Source: Pseudoxanthomonas daejeonensis (GTDB lineage Bacteria > Pseudomonadota > Gammaproteobacteria > Xanthomonadales > Xanthomonadaceae). Taken from it: DNA of 64,000 nt. Positions 57,041 to 64,000 of this stretch are shown here, one piece after another (positions within the stretch are counted from its first letter, which is position 1; each line of letters opens with the position of its first letter). The stretch lies in the NCBI RefSeq assembly GCF_010093205.1, contig NZ_PDWN01000001.1:186001-250000 (forward strand), read 5' to 3'. Made by a program: the position numbers and the translations under genes. The notes beneath the pieces are model-generated. The model was not told the DNA's origin and did not search any database. It saw only the letters and a list, made by a program, of their open reading frames with translations.

Positions 57041-57188
57041 CTGATCATCCCCGAGAACAACCTCCCCACCCCGCATCCTAACCGCAGCAGCGCACAGTCG
57101 GGGAGTGCGGGCCATCACAGAATGGCGCTTGATATCATTCCGCACCGGGCCGGCGAGGCCCAGCTCCAGCCAGCGCCAGGGCCCGTCC

Positions 57189-60100
57189 ATGACCAGCACC
57201 GCCGAACTGACCTCGCCCGCTTCGGCCAACCGGCCGGAGCTGGATACGTTCGACAACGACTACACGCTCGAGCACAAGTACACCCGCCGCGATGGCCGCA
57301 TCTATCTCAGCGGCGTGCAGGCGCTGGTCCGGCTGCCGCTGATGCAGCAGCTGCGCGATGCCGCCGCAGGACTGGATACCGCCGGCTTCATCAGCGGCTA
57401 CCGCGGCAGCCCGCTGGGCGGCTTCGACCTGGAACTGTGGCGCGCGCGCAAGCACCTGGAGGCGGCGAAGGTGCGCTTCCAGCCCGGCCTCAACGAGGAC
57501 CTGGGCGCGACCATGGTCTGGGGCACGCAGCAGACCAACCTGTTCCCCGGCGCCAGGGTCGATGGCGTCTACGCCATGTGGTACGGCAAGGGCCCGGGCG
57601 TGGACCGCTGCGGCGACGTGTTCAAGCACGGCAACGCGGCCGGCACCTGGCGCAACGGCGGCGTGCTCGCGCTGGCCGCCGACGACCATGCCTGCCGCAG
57701 CTCGACCCTGCCGCATGGCAGCGAGGACGAGTTCGTCAGCGCGATGATGCCGGTGCTCAACCCGGCCGGCGTGCAGGACATCCTCGACCTGGGCCTGGTG
57801 GGCTGGGCGATGAGCCGCTACACCGGCCGCTGGATCGGCTTCAAGACGATCGCCGAGACGGTGGAGTCGTCGGCCTCGGTGCAGGTCGATCCGTTCGCGC
57901 GCCAGATCGTGCTGCCGGAGGATTTCGAACTGCCGCCCGGCGGGCTCAACATCCGCTGGCCCGATCCGCCGCTGGACCAGGAGATGCGCCTGCACCGTTA
58001 CGCGGTGCGCGCCGCGCAGGCGTTCGCCCGCGCCAACGGCATCGACAAGGTGGTGATGGATGCGCCGAACGCGCGCCTGGGCATCGTCACCACCGGCAAG
58101 AGCTACCTGGACGTGCTGCAGGCGCTGGAATACCTGGGCCTGGACGAGGCGGCCTGCCGCGACATCGGCATCCGCGTCTACAAGGTCGGCATGACCTGGC
58201 CGCTGGAGCCCGAAGGCATCGCCCGCTTCGCCCGCGGGCTGGAAGACATCGTCGTGGTCGAGGAGAAGCGCGCCTTCCTCGAGCGGCAGATGAAGGAACA
58301 GTTCTACAACTGGCCCAACGACTGGGGCCGGCGCCCGAGCATCGTCGGCAAGTACGACGAAGCCGGCGAGTGGATCCTGCCGTCCACCGGCGAGCTGACC
58401 CCGGCGACGATTGCCGGCGTGATCGGCCGCCGCATTCTGCGCCTGCTCCCATCAAGTGCGATCAATACCGAGTCGATCGAGCAGCGCCTGCGCTGGATGG
58501 ACGCCAAGGAGGCGGAGATGGCGCTGCCGCGCGCCAGCTTCCCGCGCGTGCCGCACTACTGTTCGGGCTGCCCGCACAACACCTCCACGGTGGTGCCGGA
58601 GGGCTCGCGCGCGCTGGGCGGCATCGGCTGCCACTACATGGTCACGTGGATGGACCGCTCCACCGACACCTTCACCCACATGGGCGGCGAAGGCGTGACC
58701 TGGGCCGGGCAGGCCGCGTTCACCGACACCCCGCACGTGTTCCAGAACCTGGGCGACGGCACCTATTTCCACAGCGGCTCGCTGGCCATCCGCCAGGCCG
58801 TCGCGGCGAAGGTGAACATCACCTACAAGATCCTCTACAACGACGCGGTCGCGATGACCGGCGGCCAGCCGGTGGACGGCAGCCTGACCGTACCGGACAT
58901 CGCCCACCAGATGCGCGCCGAAGGCATCGACACGATCATGCTGGTCAGCGACGACATCGGCCGCTGGCACAAGCGCGAACTGTTCCCCTCGGGCGTGGAG
59001 TTCCACGACCGCGCAGAGCTCGATGCGGTGCAGAAGCGCCTGCGCGAGGTGAAGGGCGTCAGCATCCTGATCTACGACCAGACCTGCGCGACCGAGAAGC
59101 GGCGCCGGCGCAAGCGCGGCAAGATCGAGGACCCGCAGAAGCGGGTGATGGTCAACACGCTGGTGTGCGAGGGCTGCGGCGACTGCGGGCAGAAGAGCTT
59201 CTGCGTGTCGGTGCTGCCCAAGGAAACCGAATTCGGCCGCAAGCGCGAGATCGACCAGTCCAACTGCAACAAGGACTACTCGTGCGTGTCGGGCTTCTGC
59301 CCGAGCTTCGTCACCGTGCACGGCGGCAAGCCGCGCAAGGGACGCAAGGCAGACGCGGCGTCGCGGCTGGAGGGCCTGCCCGACCCGGTCTTCCGCTCCG
59401 TGCTCGACCAGCCCTGGAACATCCTGATCACCGGCGTCGGCGGGACCGGCGTGGTCACCATCGGCGCATTGCTGGGCATGGCCGGCCACCTGGAAGGCAA
59501 GGGCGCCACGGTGCTCGACCAGACCGGCCTGGCGCAGAAGGGCGGCGCGGTCACCACCCACATCCGCATCGCGCGCACGCCCGAAGACATCCACGCGGTG
59601 CGTATCGCCGCCGGCGAAGCCGACCTGGTGCTGGGCTGCGACATGGTCGTGGTCAACGACTACTGGGCGCTGTCGAAGGTGCGCGGCGAGCGCTCCGAAG
59701 TGGTGCTCAACACCTACGAAGCGATGCCGGGCACGTTCACCATGCGCCCGGACCTGCACTTCCCCGCCGCCGACATCATCGCCGGGATCAAGCTCGCACT
59801 GGGTGGGCGCGAACCGCGCCTGCTGGACGCCACCCAGCTGGCCACCGCGTTGCTGGGCGATGCCATCGCCACCAACCTGTTCATGCTCGGCTACGCCTGG
59901 CAGCTGGGCCTGGTGCCGATCTCGCACGCCGCGCTGATGCGCGCGATCGAGCTCAACGGCGCGGCGATCGAGATGAACCAGCAGGCCTTCGCCTGGGGCC
60001 GCCTGGCCTCGGTCGATCCGCAGGCGGTGGCGGCCGCCGCCGGCCTGGTCTCCAATCCGGTGACCGCCGACGAGCGCGTGCCCGATGGCCTGCACCAGTT

Positions 60101-60947
60101 GCCGCCCGGCGACTGGGAAGGCAGCGAGTGGGGCAGCACCAGTGCGCCGCACCCGGTGCGGGCCGAGCGCGAGCTGCGAGGCCTGCCCGAACGCGAGGGT
60201 GTCGCCGCAGGCACCGCATCACCGCTGGATGTCGCCACCGGCGAGGTCGCCGCGCTGCCACTGGACGACCTGCGCCTGTCACGCAGCCTCGACGAACTGG
60301 TCGCGCGCCGCGAGAAGTTCCTCACCGATTACCAGGACGCCGCCTATGCACGCCGCTACACCGGCCTGGTAGCCAGGGTCCGCAGCGCCGAGGCACTGAA
60401 GGCCCCGGGTTCGACCGCGCTGGCGGAAGCCGTGGCCCGCTATGCCTTCAAGCTGATGGCCTACAAGGACGAGTACGAGGTCGCCCGCCTGTACACCAGC
60501 GGCGAGTTCCAGCGCCGCCTGCAGCAGCAGTTCGAAGGCGACTACACGCTGCGCTTCCACCTCGCCCCGCCGCTGCTGGCGAAGAAGGACGAACAGGGTC
60601 GGCTGCTCAAGCGCGAGTACGGGCCGTGGATGTTCACCGCGTTCCGCTGGCTGGCCAAGCTGAAGTTCCTGCGCGGCGGTCCGCTGGACCCGTTCGGTCG
60701 CAGCGAAGAACGGCGCACGGAGCGGCAACTCGTCACCGACTACTTCGCCACCATCGACCGGCTGCTGGCGGGGCTCGACGGCGGCAACCTCGCCTTGGCC
60801 GCGGAGATCGCCAGCCTCCCCGAGCACATCCGCGGCTACGGACACGTCAAGGAAGCGCACCTGCACAAGGCCCAGGCTCGTGAAGCCGACCTGCTCCGGG
60901 AGTGGGACAACCCGCTGCGCGTGGTGTTGCGCAGCGACGCTGCCTGA
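57189..60947 (+). CDS. Indolepyruvate:ferredoxin oxidoreductase, single-chain alpha-beta fusion
   Basis: A 1252-residue, oxygen-tolerant-type 2-ketoacid oxidoreductase. The N-terminal half is the TPP-binding IorA region ('FISGYRGSPLGGFDLELW', 'PHYCSGCPHNTSTVVPEGSRALGGIGCHYM', 'GDGTYFHSGSLAIRQAVAA'). A cysteine-rich segment ('VCEGCGDCGQKSFC...NCNKDYSCVSGFCP') can hold iron-sulfur clusters, and the C-terminal IorB region has 'ITGVGGTGVVTIGALLGMA' and a DUF6537-like end. It oxidatively decarboxylates aryl or branched 2-oxoacids to acyl-CoA. ATG 57189 is chosen; an earlier in-frame ATG at 57105 extends into the divergent promoter region. Confidence 0.92.
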   Translation: MTSTAELTSPASANRPELDTFDNDYTLEHKYTRRDGRIYLSGVQALVRLPLMQQLRDAAAGLDTAGFISGYRGSPLGGFDLELWRARKHLEAAKVRFQPGLNEDLGATMVWGTQQTNLFPGARVDGVYAMWYGKGPGVDRCGDVFKHGNAAGTWRNGGVLALAADDHACRSSTLPHGSEDEFVSAMMPVLNPAGVQDILDLGLVGWAMSRYTGRWIGFKTIAETVESSASVQVDPFARQIVLPEDFELPPGGLNIRWPDPPLDQEMRLHRYAVRAAQAFARANGIDKVVMDAPNARLGIVTTGKSYLDVLQALEYLGLDEAACRDIGIRVYKVGMTWPLEPEGIARFARGLEDIVVVEEKRAFLERQMKEQFYNWPNDWGRRPSIVGKYDEAGEWILPSTGELTPATIAGVIGRRILRLLPSSAINTESIEQRLRWMDAKEAEMALPRASFPRVPHYCSGCPHNTSTVVPEGSRALGGIGCHYMVTWMDRSTDTFTHMGGEGVTWAGQAAFTDTPHVFQNLGDGTYFHSGSLAIRQAVAAKVNITYKILYNDAVAMTGGQPVDGSLTVPDIAHQMRAEGIDTIMLVSDDIGRWHKRELFPSGVEFHDRAELDAVQKRLREVKGVSILIYDQTCATEKRRRRKRGKIEDPQKRVMVNTLVCEGCGDCGQKSFCVSVLPKETEFGRKREIDQSNCNKDYSCVSGFCPSFVTVHGGKPRKGRKADAASRLEGLPDPVFRSVLDQPWNILITGVGGTGVVTIGALLGMAGHLEGKGATVLDQTGLAQKGGAVTTHIRIARTPEDIHAVRIAAGEADLVLGCDMVVVNDYWALSKVRGERSEVVLNTYEAMPGTFTMRPDLHFPAADIIAGIKLALGGREPRLLDATQLATALLGDAIATNLFMLGYAWQLGLVPISHAALMRAIELNGAAIEMNQQAFAWGRLASVDPQAVAAAAGLVSNPVTADERVPDGLHQLPPGDWEGSEWGSTSAPHPVRAERELRGLPEREGVAAGTASPLDVATGEVAALPLDDLRLSRSLDELVARREKFLTDYQDAAYARRYTGLVARVRSAEALKAPGSTALAEAVARYAFKLMAYKDEYEVARLYTSGEFQRRLQQQFEGDYTLRFHLAPPLLAKKDEQGRLLKREYGPWMFTAFRWLAKLKFLRGGPLDPFGRSEERRTERQLVTDYFATIDRLLAGLDGGNLALAAEIASLPEHIRGYGHVKEAHLHKAQAREADLLREWDNPLRVVLRSDAA

Positions 60948-62472: not shown

Positions 62473-62982
62473 TCAGGGCGGGCCTGGAACGCGCGCCAAT
62501 GCATCGCCAAGCGCACCATAGGAGTTGATGCCCTGGAAGACACCCAATGCACCGGTGCCCACTTCGACATGGGTGACCGTGCGGATACGCTGGCTGTCGA
62601 GCGTGTTCTGTATCACCACGCCACCGGCAACACCTGCGGGATCGAAGTGGTTGCCTTCGCCCACCTGGACCACGATGCCCTTGTTGAAATCGGCCAGGGC
62701 CTGCGCCTGTCCGGCATCAAGGTCCACCACATCCGGAATCCGCACCGAGACGCTGGCGACCAGCACGTCGTTGACATAGACGACGCGCTCGATCCCGAAC
62801 GAGAGCATCTGCCCGGACGGCAGCTGGAAACCGCCGCGCATCTCCGCCAGGCGCGCCGGATCGATCGGCTTCCACGCCCCGCCCAACGGCGTGGACCGGC
62901 CATCCCATGCCTGCGCCTGCGCGGACACCGCGGCGCATGCAACAAGCAGCAACGCGGGAAACGATCGACGGACGACGTTCAT
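62473..62982 (-). CDS. FapE-like secreted protein with LAEMRGG motif
   Basis: A 169-residue secreted protein (signal peptide 1-23). After a short linker comes 'DPARLAEMRGGFQLPSGQ' with Gly50-Gly51, then 'FGIERVVYVNDVLVASVSVRIPD', a Gly/Val/Asn-rich middle ('GGVVIQNTLDSQRIRT') and 'GALGVFQGINSYGALGDAL'. The order, size and IQN/FQG patterns recall FapE, a protein of the Pseudomonas amyloid fibre operon. The DPARLAEMRGG motif nearly repeats in the upstream gene at 63682, as if both were processed alike. Four bases separate it from the C39 peptidase gene. Confidence 0.65.
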   Translation of the reverse strand: MNVVRRSFPALLLVACAAVSAQAQAWDGRSTPLGGAWKPIDPARLAEMRGGFQLPSGQMLSFGIERVVYVNDVLVASVSVRIPDVVDLDAGQAQALADFNKGIVVQVGEGNHFDPAGVAGGVVIQNTLDSQRIRTVTHVEVGTGALGVFQGINSYGALGDALARVPGPP

Positions 62983-62986
62983 GGCT

Positions 62987-63685
62987 TCAGATGTCCGTGG
63001 GGCCGCGCCTGGGCGCGGTGATGTTGCGCAATCCATCGCGCTGGATGCCCATGTCGAGCGGCGCCGGGGGCGCCGTGCGCCAGTCGTCGGGATTGTTGAA
63101 GCCGGCCTGCTCCCGCCGGTTGTGCACGACGAACAGCACCCGGTTGTCCCATAGCGCTTCGAAGCGAGAACGCGGCATCGCGCGCGTGCCCCGCGCGGGA
63201 TCGCCCAGCAGCACGCGTCCATTGCGCATGCCCTTGACCACCACGAAATGCCGGTACCCGCGATCGTTCAGGAGCACGATCGCCGGAACACCCTCTTCTT
63301 CGAGCTTTTCCAGCGGCAGCTCGAAGCCATCCGCCTCGAAGCCCTTCGTAGCCAGGTATCGGCGCATGTCCAGCAGCGAGAACCCTTCCTTCCGGATCCT
63401 GGCCTGGTCGCCGTTGTCGTACATCTGCACGAAGACGTCCGCTTCGCTGACCGGATGGCCGTACTGGTAGGTCAACAGCGTCGCCGTGGCCGCGGAGCCG
63501 CAACTGAAGTCGTACTGCTGGGGGACCGTGGTACGGAAGCGCGCCTCCTTCAGGCTGACGACGCGCATGCCGTAGGTGCCGCCACCCTGCGGTACGCGGA
63601 TGTCGGTACTGGCGGCCCACGCGCCATGCGCGCACGCGAATGCGCACGCCAGCGCGCCCCACCCCGCCAGGCGCCGATTGCTCAT
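62987..63685 (-). CDS. Stand-alone secreted C39 peptidase (FapD-like)
   Basis: A 232-residue protein with a signal peptide (1-25) and a peptidase-C39 domain: Gln56/57 and Cys62 in 'QQYDFSCGSAATATLL', His146 in 'GYRHFVVVKG' and Asp162 in 'VLLGDPARGT', the full catalytic set. Unlike bacteriocin exporters it lacks ABC-transporter domains, so it acts free in the periplasm, as FapD of the Fap amyloid system is thought to. Its ATG overlaps the stop of the upstream gene (ATGA), so the two are coupled. It probably processes the neighbours' products. Confidence 0.85.
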   Translation of the reverse strand: MSNRRLAGWGALACAFACAHGAWAASTDIRVPQGGGTYGMRVVSLKEARFRTTVPQQYDFSCGSAATATLLTYQYGHPVSEADVFVQMYDNGDQARIRKEGFSLLDMRRYLATKGFEADGFELPLEKLEEEGVPAIVLLNDRGYRHFVVVKGMRNGRVLLGDPARGTRAMPRSRFEALWDNRVLFVVHNRREQAGFNNPDDWRTAPPAPLDMGIQRDGLRNITAPRRGPTDI

Positions 63686-64000
63686 TGGCCTGGGTTGGCG
63701 AAGATGACCTGGATGCTCATCCCGTTCTGGATCAGCACGTTGCTGCCGCTGTTCTGGATGACCGTGTTGAGGCCGCTGGCGTTGGAGAAGGCTTCGCCGT
63801 TGATGGAATTGGAACCACTGACGACGTGGTCGGCCGTGTTGTCGTGGACGCTACCATCCACGGAAGTGTTGCTTTCATTCGTCTCTTCGCCACCGCGCAT
63901 GGCGGCCAACCGTTCGATATCGACTGCCTCGCTGCCGGCGAAGCCGGGAACGGATGCTGCAGGGAGAAGCGCCTGCCTAGCGTCCGGCGTTGAGGTCGCC
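63682..64000 (-). CDS. Asn/Gly/Ser-rich secreted protein with LAAMRGG motif, cut by window edge
   Basis: The last 105 codons of a gene running off the right edge. The visible part has 'DIERLAAMRGGEETNES' (Gly-Gly at visible residues 36-37) followed by an Asn/Ser/Gly-rich region: 'VVSGSNSINGEAFSNASGLN' and 'TVIQNSGSNVLIQNG', ending 'VIFANPGQ'. Such N/G/S- and IQN-rich sequence fits an amyloid-like or beta-helical subunit. Internal ATG 63900 and TTG 63909 could start a short version, but the open frame upstream and the motif shared with the next-but-one gene argue that the gene is longer. Its position before fapD-E-F-like genes is that of fapC. Confidence 0.65.
   Translation of the reverse strand, partial: ATSTPDARQALLPAASVPGFAGSEAVDIERLAAMRGGEETNESNTSVDGSVHDNTADHVVSGSNSINGEAFSNASGLNTVIQNSGSNVLIQNGMSIQVIFANPGQ

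Follow-up and report, generated by a model that had tools for sequence, protein, structure and literature searches.

Two small proteins encoded on either side of a free C39 peptidase gene in Pseudoxanthomonas daejeonensis carry a common motif, RLA[A/E]MRGG, which is likely to be the core of a bacteriocin-type leader that stands behind a Sec signal and is read by a FapD-type peptidase, the two elements making up a two-step signal. Comparison of sequences across related operons makes it very probable that FapD-type peptidases dock on this motif, and probable that proteins of the type found here are cut at its double glycine. The genes belong to an operon at the end of the 64,000-nucleotide stretch of DNA that was analyzed, hereafter the window (G000:C11:186001-250000).

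The window operon and the motif shared by its exported proteins

The operon lies on the minus strand and comprises, in 5' to 3' order, P0001, P0002, P0003, P0004 and P0005. P0001, situated just outside the window at the upstream end of the operon, is a Gly-rich, fibre-like protein of 465 aa with a Sec-like signal and no match to the NCBIfam FapC model. P0002 (63682..64000 in the window, minus strand) is a small Sec-exported, FapB-like protein of 162 aa whose gene extends beyond the window; translation probably begins at a GTG at 64170, by which the full gene would span 63682-64170. Its match to NCBIfam FapB is weak and covers residues 100-155 (E 3.9e-4, 20.1 bits against a cut-off of 190). P0003 (62987..63685, minus strand; 232 aa) is a free C39 peptidase related to FapD and FilB, and P0004 (62473..62982, minus strand; 169 aa) a small Sec-exported, FapE-like protein that has no NCBIfam FapE match of its own. 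The most likely start of P0004 is at 62982, directly past the P0003 stop codon, the listed 249-aa ORF overlapping the peptidase. P0005 (61046..62467, minus strand; up to 473 aa) is a FapF-like outer-membrane barrel with an N-terminal coiled coil, matching NCBIfam FapF with an E of 4.2e-44 and 151 bits (cut-off 700). The C39 peptidase adjoins a FapF-type pore as in fapABCDEF operons, but the six-gene set of the latter is not there, as the scores for FapB and FapC attest. Given that the FapA and FapE models each match this genome once, at another operon, the window operon is a second one that we term Fap-like only. Most of it lies in the window, from the FapB-like protein through the FapD-type C39 peptidase and the FapE-like protein to the FapF-type pore; the fibre-like protein is encoded outside. 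Residues 105-111 of P0004 (window 62650-62670) form a VQVGEGN stretch, which we take to be RHIM-like, and a homologue of P0004 (L077 2108-2590) weakly matches the Pfam RHIM amyloid motif at residues 88-101 (E 0.054). On the plus strand, at 57105-60947, there is a 1280-aa ORF that by eye resembles an indolepyruvate ferredoxin oxidoreductase.

As the earlier note had proposed, the gene between the two motif-bearing proteins encodes a C39 peptidase without the transporter part: P0003 matches PF03412 (Peptidase_C39) with 77.2 bits (cut-off 22; E 1.3e-21). Both the double-glycine peptidase fold and the catalytic residues are intact, with C62 the predicted nucleophile and Q56, C62, H146 and D162 (the catalytic Cys/His/Asp and the oxyanion Gln) invariant in 26 and in 40 aligned sequences. 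Its nearest NCBIfam models are FapD (4.6e-40) and FilB (1.7e-35), both matches lying below the curated cut-offs; for the FapD equivalog NF058616, P0003 scores 137.3 bits against 330. Since P0003 has a Sec-like signal too, the peptidase and the leader-bearing proteins should meet in the periplasm. The groove residue I59 of PCAT1 corresponds to R108 in an alignment with LahT, this position being K/R in most relatives, while an alignment with PCAT1 that is gapped differently puts L105 there; docking of the leader on P0003 may differ in detail from that on PCAT1. Many leaders are acidic within -8 to -10, and we would guess that these residues form a subfamily-specific contact with K/R108 on the groove helix.

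The 11-mers that had first drawn attention, DIERLAAMRGG in P0002 and DPARLAEMRGG in P0004, are identical at 8 of 11 positions and lie in these genes as had been claimed. One residue to their left V and I occupy -12; the leader cores, from -12 to -1, are VDIERLAAMRGG in P0002 (63889..63924, minus strand) and IDPARLAEMRGG in P0004 (62830..62865, minus strand), and both read hydrophobic -12, L-7, M-4, G-2, G-1. A blastp comparison of the two whole proteins recovered the motif stretch (8/14, E 0.014), its only other match being a meaningless one of 8 residues. In the available excerpts of PMC6959990 the PCAT leader consensus is given as L(-12)xxxE(-8)L(-7)xxxxG(-2)G(-1), and the leader bound to PCAT1 is described as helical at -10 to -4 with -12, -7 and -4 docking; the LahT leader makes its contacts through V-4, L-7 and L-12 (PMC6363468, in excerpt). 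The spacing of the window motif equals the LahT contact positions and, apart from Glu-8, the PCAT consensus: hydrophobic residues at -12, -7 and -4, Gly at -2 and one of G/A/S at -1 are found in both P0002 and P0004, whereas both have Arg at -8 in place of Glu. The leaders of PCAT1, ComA and LahT differ further from those described here, which are not N-terminal leaders of proteins exported by an ABC transporter but stand behind a Sec-like signal, with the peptidase predicted to be periplasmic and without a transporter. The window motif looks like a double-glycine leader and is not filed here as a PCAT substrate. It ends a median of 27 residues (P0004 type) or 47 residues (P0002 type) past the predicted Sec cut, as placed by a crude home-made rule for Sec signals. 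The NCBIfam bacteriocin-leader models gave no match to P0002 or P0004 at E up to 10, in a search whose HMMER filters drop most matches above 0.1; the Type-A lantibiotic model weakly matches the leader of one homologue (the L077 protein, E 0.11), and the mersacidin-family model that of this genome's FapE (E 0.91). In the AlphaFold (AF2) model of P0004 an isolated helix at 42-48, which corresponds to -10 to -4, is followed by RGG and then by a folded core at 60-143; pLDDT is at least 87 in 7 of the 8 ten-residue blocks spanning residues 61-140, and the helix falls in a block of pLDDT 66.

Conservation of the leader in related loci

Homologues of P0004 occur in 35 of 250 genomes of the order, and all 30 loci fetched from these 35 matches have C39, P0002-type and barrel neighbors. 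To these were added the best 80 of at least 582 confirmed loci from a profile scan of genome contigs with a 26-sequence C39 alignment; as the latter were found through the peptidase, its presence there is no evidence of linkage. The resulting 110 loci, including that of the window itself (L016), come from, among others, Lysobacter, Dyella, Luteibacter, Burkholderia, Cupriavidus, Massilia, Duganella, Variovorax, Thiobacillus and a Nitrospira MAG; they may repeat species, and the two families of 109 proteins each contain 100 and 98 distinct 14-mers. A P0002-type gene is present in 109/110 of the listed loci, always upstream of C39, in the same orientation and within 2 kb. The P0004-type gene is likewise present in 109/110, in 108 cases within 2 kb downstream of C39 and in one further off, the locus without it (L159) being a truncated contig. 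A FapF-type barrel accompanies them in 105 of the 110.

Alignment of the homologues, set beforehand as the test on which the idea of a common GG site could fall, did not overturn it. Upon realignment, L-7 and GG are both present in 109/109 of the downstream, P0004-type proteins; L-7 is equally invariant (109/109) in the upstream, P0002-type proteins, which have GG in 97, GK in 5, AG in 4, GR in 2 and GS in 1. Position -12 is V/I/L/M in 103/109 P0004-type and 88/109 P0002-type proteins, and -4 is M/L/I/V/F/Y/A in 91/109 of the former and just 80/109 of the latter. Among 44 aligned P0004-type proteins, L45 (-7), R49 (-3), G50 (-2) and G51 (-1) constitute four of the eight invariant columns, and in 45 aligned P0002-type proteins the leader is a conserved island in an otherwise poorly alignable N-terminal half. 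Hence, of the GG processing site envisaged in the earlier note, the conservation, the full C39-leader spacing and the occurrence in two Sec-exported neighbors stand, but the double glycine is not universal, being absent from 12/109 upstream proteins and from all 32 FapE proteins considered below.

With the 100 residues after the signal shuffled as a control, the pattern [VILM]x4Lx4GG was observed in 77/108 upstream-type proteins against 1.5 expected, and in 90/107 downstream-type proteins against 2.6; a looser pattern separates less well (105/108 versus 21.4 upstream, 97/107 versus 31.3 downstream). The C39 proteins, which serve as an internal control, have the strict pattern in 0/110 cases, with 1.1 expected. 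Conservation is nevertheless stronger evidence against chance than such pattern counts. When compared as profiles, the upstream and downstream leaders score 34.7 against each other, the maximum in 91 control windows being 8.2.

The strict pattern also turns up in 25/103 FapF-type barrels of the Fap-like operons (0.8 expected; 42/105 with the loose pattern), close to where the coiled coil ends, between it and the barrel, as in VIGPDVLARKRGG. This is the region for which processing of FapF has been suggested; the window's own barrel, P0005, lacks the pattern. Barrels with the pattern include those of L025, L027, L029, L043, L105, L106, L111, L116, L121, L123, L127, L133, L137 and L138, and a double glycine in FapF was noted before (PMC5135000, in the part available). 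Such barrels could either be a third substrate or signal that coiled-coil ends mimic the leader. In Massilia cavernae (L167) the opposite, minus strand of the locus encodes two small Sec-type proteins with KLDSETMKDYKGKF and KLDSEDFKYYKGSY, the one with KLDSETMKDYKGKF being the top scorer among the control ORFs of the leader search described below.

Leader variants in classical Fap operons and candidates at distant free C39 loci

The genome has two Fap-type fibre systems. The other, 89 kb from the window operon (L005 6173-12154; contig C11 336172-342153), has the order fapABCDEF, and all six Fap models match it, below the NCBIfam cut-offs though much more strongly than they match the window operon; its FapD scores 260.4 bits, below 330 as well. 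In the window operon as in the Fap system of Pseudomonas, a free C39 peptidase exported by Sec is encoded alongside small fibre-type proteins, likewise Sec-exported, and a pore of coiled coil and barrel; FapD and FapF are the best NCBIfam matches of the corresponding window proteins. The two systems differ in that the window's FapB, FapD and FapF matches are far below cut-off with no FapA or FapE match, and in that the FapB-like protein of the window carries a leader, whereas FapB and FapC of this genome's fap operon have none on reading.

FapE has the spacing of the window leader. We assembled 32 FapE loci, 21 from 22 matches (L067, FapB-like on reading, was excluded) and 11 picked by eye from the survey of 30 loci described below, with two places represented twice (L059/L085, L057/L089) and the window genome's own FapE included (L060). 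All 32 proteins have, behind the signal, [LIV] at -12, [LM] at -7 and G at -2, with D-10 in 27, E-8 in 26 and M/L/I at -4 in 27, which is the PCAT consensus save for -1: this residue is R in 23 and K in 9, giving G-[R/K] where the window proteins have a real GG. A C39 gene is present in all 21 of the FapE loci that were found without using the peptidase. The FapE leader profile scores 23.3 and 19.7 against the two window-type leaders, again with a control maximum of 8.2 in 91 windows. Counted by reading, and with some leaders identical, FapA has a leader of the form [LM]x4[FIY]x2[VIM]x[SAG]G, as in LSDGDFASVASG, in 13 of 17 loci, the FapA proteins of L187, L190, L193 and L194 not fitting it. 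Its profile scores 17.0 against that of FapE and about 10, barely above controls, against the P0002 and P0004 leaders. In classical FapF the pattern was not seen on reading, except perhaps in L063. Given that both FapE and FapA carry variants of the leader, we propose that it may be the recognition site of FapD in general.

A further survey matched 44 of 274 genomes, and the 30 loci listed from it divide on reading into 11 classical, 9 window-like and 10 distant ones. The leader is seen in 8 of the 9 window-like loci, L095 being the exception. Scored on a leader matrix that was trained on the Fap-type families, a neighbor bearing a Sec-like signal outranks 99% of 267 control ORFs at 6 of the 10 distant loci, and none does so at the other 4. 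Neighbors of this kind have LTDADMDSITAG (L091, score 17.7), LQDGVLAATEGG (L096) and LSNAQMDGVAAG (L097), with a further one at L069 scoring 17.0; that of L088 is weak at 9.4 and doubtful, since parts of three C39 proteins reach 9-11 on the same matrix. Only L069 and L091 exceed the control maximum of 15.4, and hence single distant cases prove little. At L068, the sixth such locus, a Sec-exported DUF6160 neighbor of a FilB-like C39 peptidase carries a leader-like LNDTGLEQATGQ after its signal, and we infer that this protein corresponds to FilA, named as the subunit of the pilus in the Fil system (FilA, FilB, FilC) of Acinetobacter (PMC11784438, in excerpt). The FilB and FilC models also match the window's peptidase and barrel, the difference being that at this one FilB-like locus GQ replaces GG.

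A proposed two-step export signal and its rivals

From the sequences, the course of events that we judge probable is as follows. The Sec system would export the proteins and signal peptidase remove the first signal, whereupon the leader helix at -10 to -4 would dock through -12, -7 and -4 on the FapD-type peptidase in the periplasm. The peptidase would then cut after the double glycine and free the FapB-like and FapE-like cores, which could pass through or prime the pore, so that fibres would form where and when they are needed. By the cut, the fibre nucleator and the FapE-like protein would be released from a form in which they are silenced or bound to the pore.

The main difficulty lies at -1. 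C39 enzymes normally accept Gly, Ala or Ser there, and the R/K of FapE therefore implies that the cut may lie elsewhere or that the motif only docks. Together with GK/GR in 7/109 P0002-type proteins and with FapA reported as unprocessed, this argues against a plain GG rule: the enzymes of this subfamily may accept R/K at -1, or such proteins may dock and be cut elsewhere. An alternative that we deem unlikely is that the leader only gives the C39 protein a grip on its clients for holding or chaperoning them, in the manner of the inactive C39-like domains of type I secretion, with the essential protease activity directed elsewhere, at FapF or further along FapE. Besides the residues at -1 in 32/32 FapE and in the seven upstream-type proteins, it draws on the accessible parts of PMC5557850, in which FapA-D are reported as unprocessed by mass spectrometry, FapD is suggested to cleave the FapF linker, and FapE seems N-terminally processed, with N-terminal peptides missing over about 70 residues and thus beyond the leader. 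Yet the GG, needless for docking alone, is invariant in 109/109 downstream-type proteins, the catalytic residues are invariant, and in the same source Cys38 of FapD is required for FapC secretion, the Cys38Ala mutant failing.

Still less probable is a structural origin, in which the peptidase plays no part and paralogues inherited the motif as a routine conserved piece of one Fap fold. The mature parts of the P0002 and P0004 families do match as profiles (probability 85.7, E 5.5e-6; 25.5 in an earlier attempt with 30 sequences each), and the motif may hence be inherited by paralogues; of the earlier remark that the two proteins share it in different overall contexts, the sharing holds and their unrelatedness becomes doubtful. 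However, the conserved block has the positions of a leader and sits in a poorly alignable N-terminal half, apart from the folded core in the AF2 model; it recurs in FapA and in neighbors of distant free C39 enzymes; and a C39 gene is found in 30/30 fetched P0004 loci (of 35 matches) and 21/21 FapE loci, all located without the peptidase. Chance likeness between two short stretches rich in Ala, Arg and Gly, in a genome of high G+C, is refuted by the conservation in 109/109 and 97/109 proteins. In its favor one might cite that, of the 9 sites of a DNA pattern for [L/V/I/M/F]xxMRGG in the 3.56-Mb genome, 7 lie outside the operon; but 9 sites exceed the 2 of the reversed pattern, and in the translations read only the P0002 and P0004 sites follow a Sec-like signal.

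The preferred reading, a leader behind a Sec signal that is read by the peptidase, had been put forward as a new use of C39 chemistry, which needs qualification. FapD has already been published as a periplasmic, transporter-free C39 enzyme in fibre export, with Fap proteins said to be without such a leader (PMC5557850, in the parts available), homologues of fapD and fapF adjoin each other in five further phyla (PMC6173800, in excerpt), and the target of FapD is described as unclear in published work. The main text of open-licence full texts yielded no publication describing a leader in Fap or neighboring proteins. Thus, while the free periplasmic C39 peptidase and the processing of FapE were known before, the leader on Fap-type proteins seems to be the new part.

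Whether one can go further, to a general second-stage export code of Gram-negatives in which Sec-exported fibre proteins with a leader, a periplasmic C39 peptidase and a coiled-coil barrel pore act together, is in our estimation an even call. Such a code, if true, would cover Fap, the window operon, Fil-like and several unnamed systems, and would name the substrates of FapD. The presence of the leader in FapE and FapA, along with a sister operon that has a true GG, turns the question of the FapD target into a simple peptide assay. If the proposal is correct, the peptidase-leader module of bacteriocin export would have found a second use in the periplasm, in the control of surface fibres.
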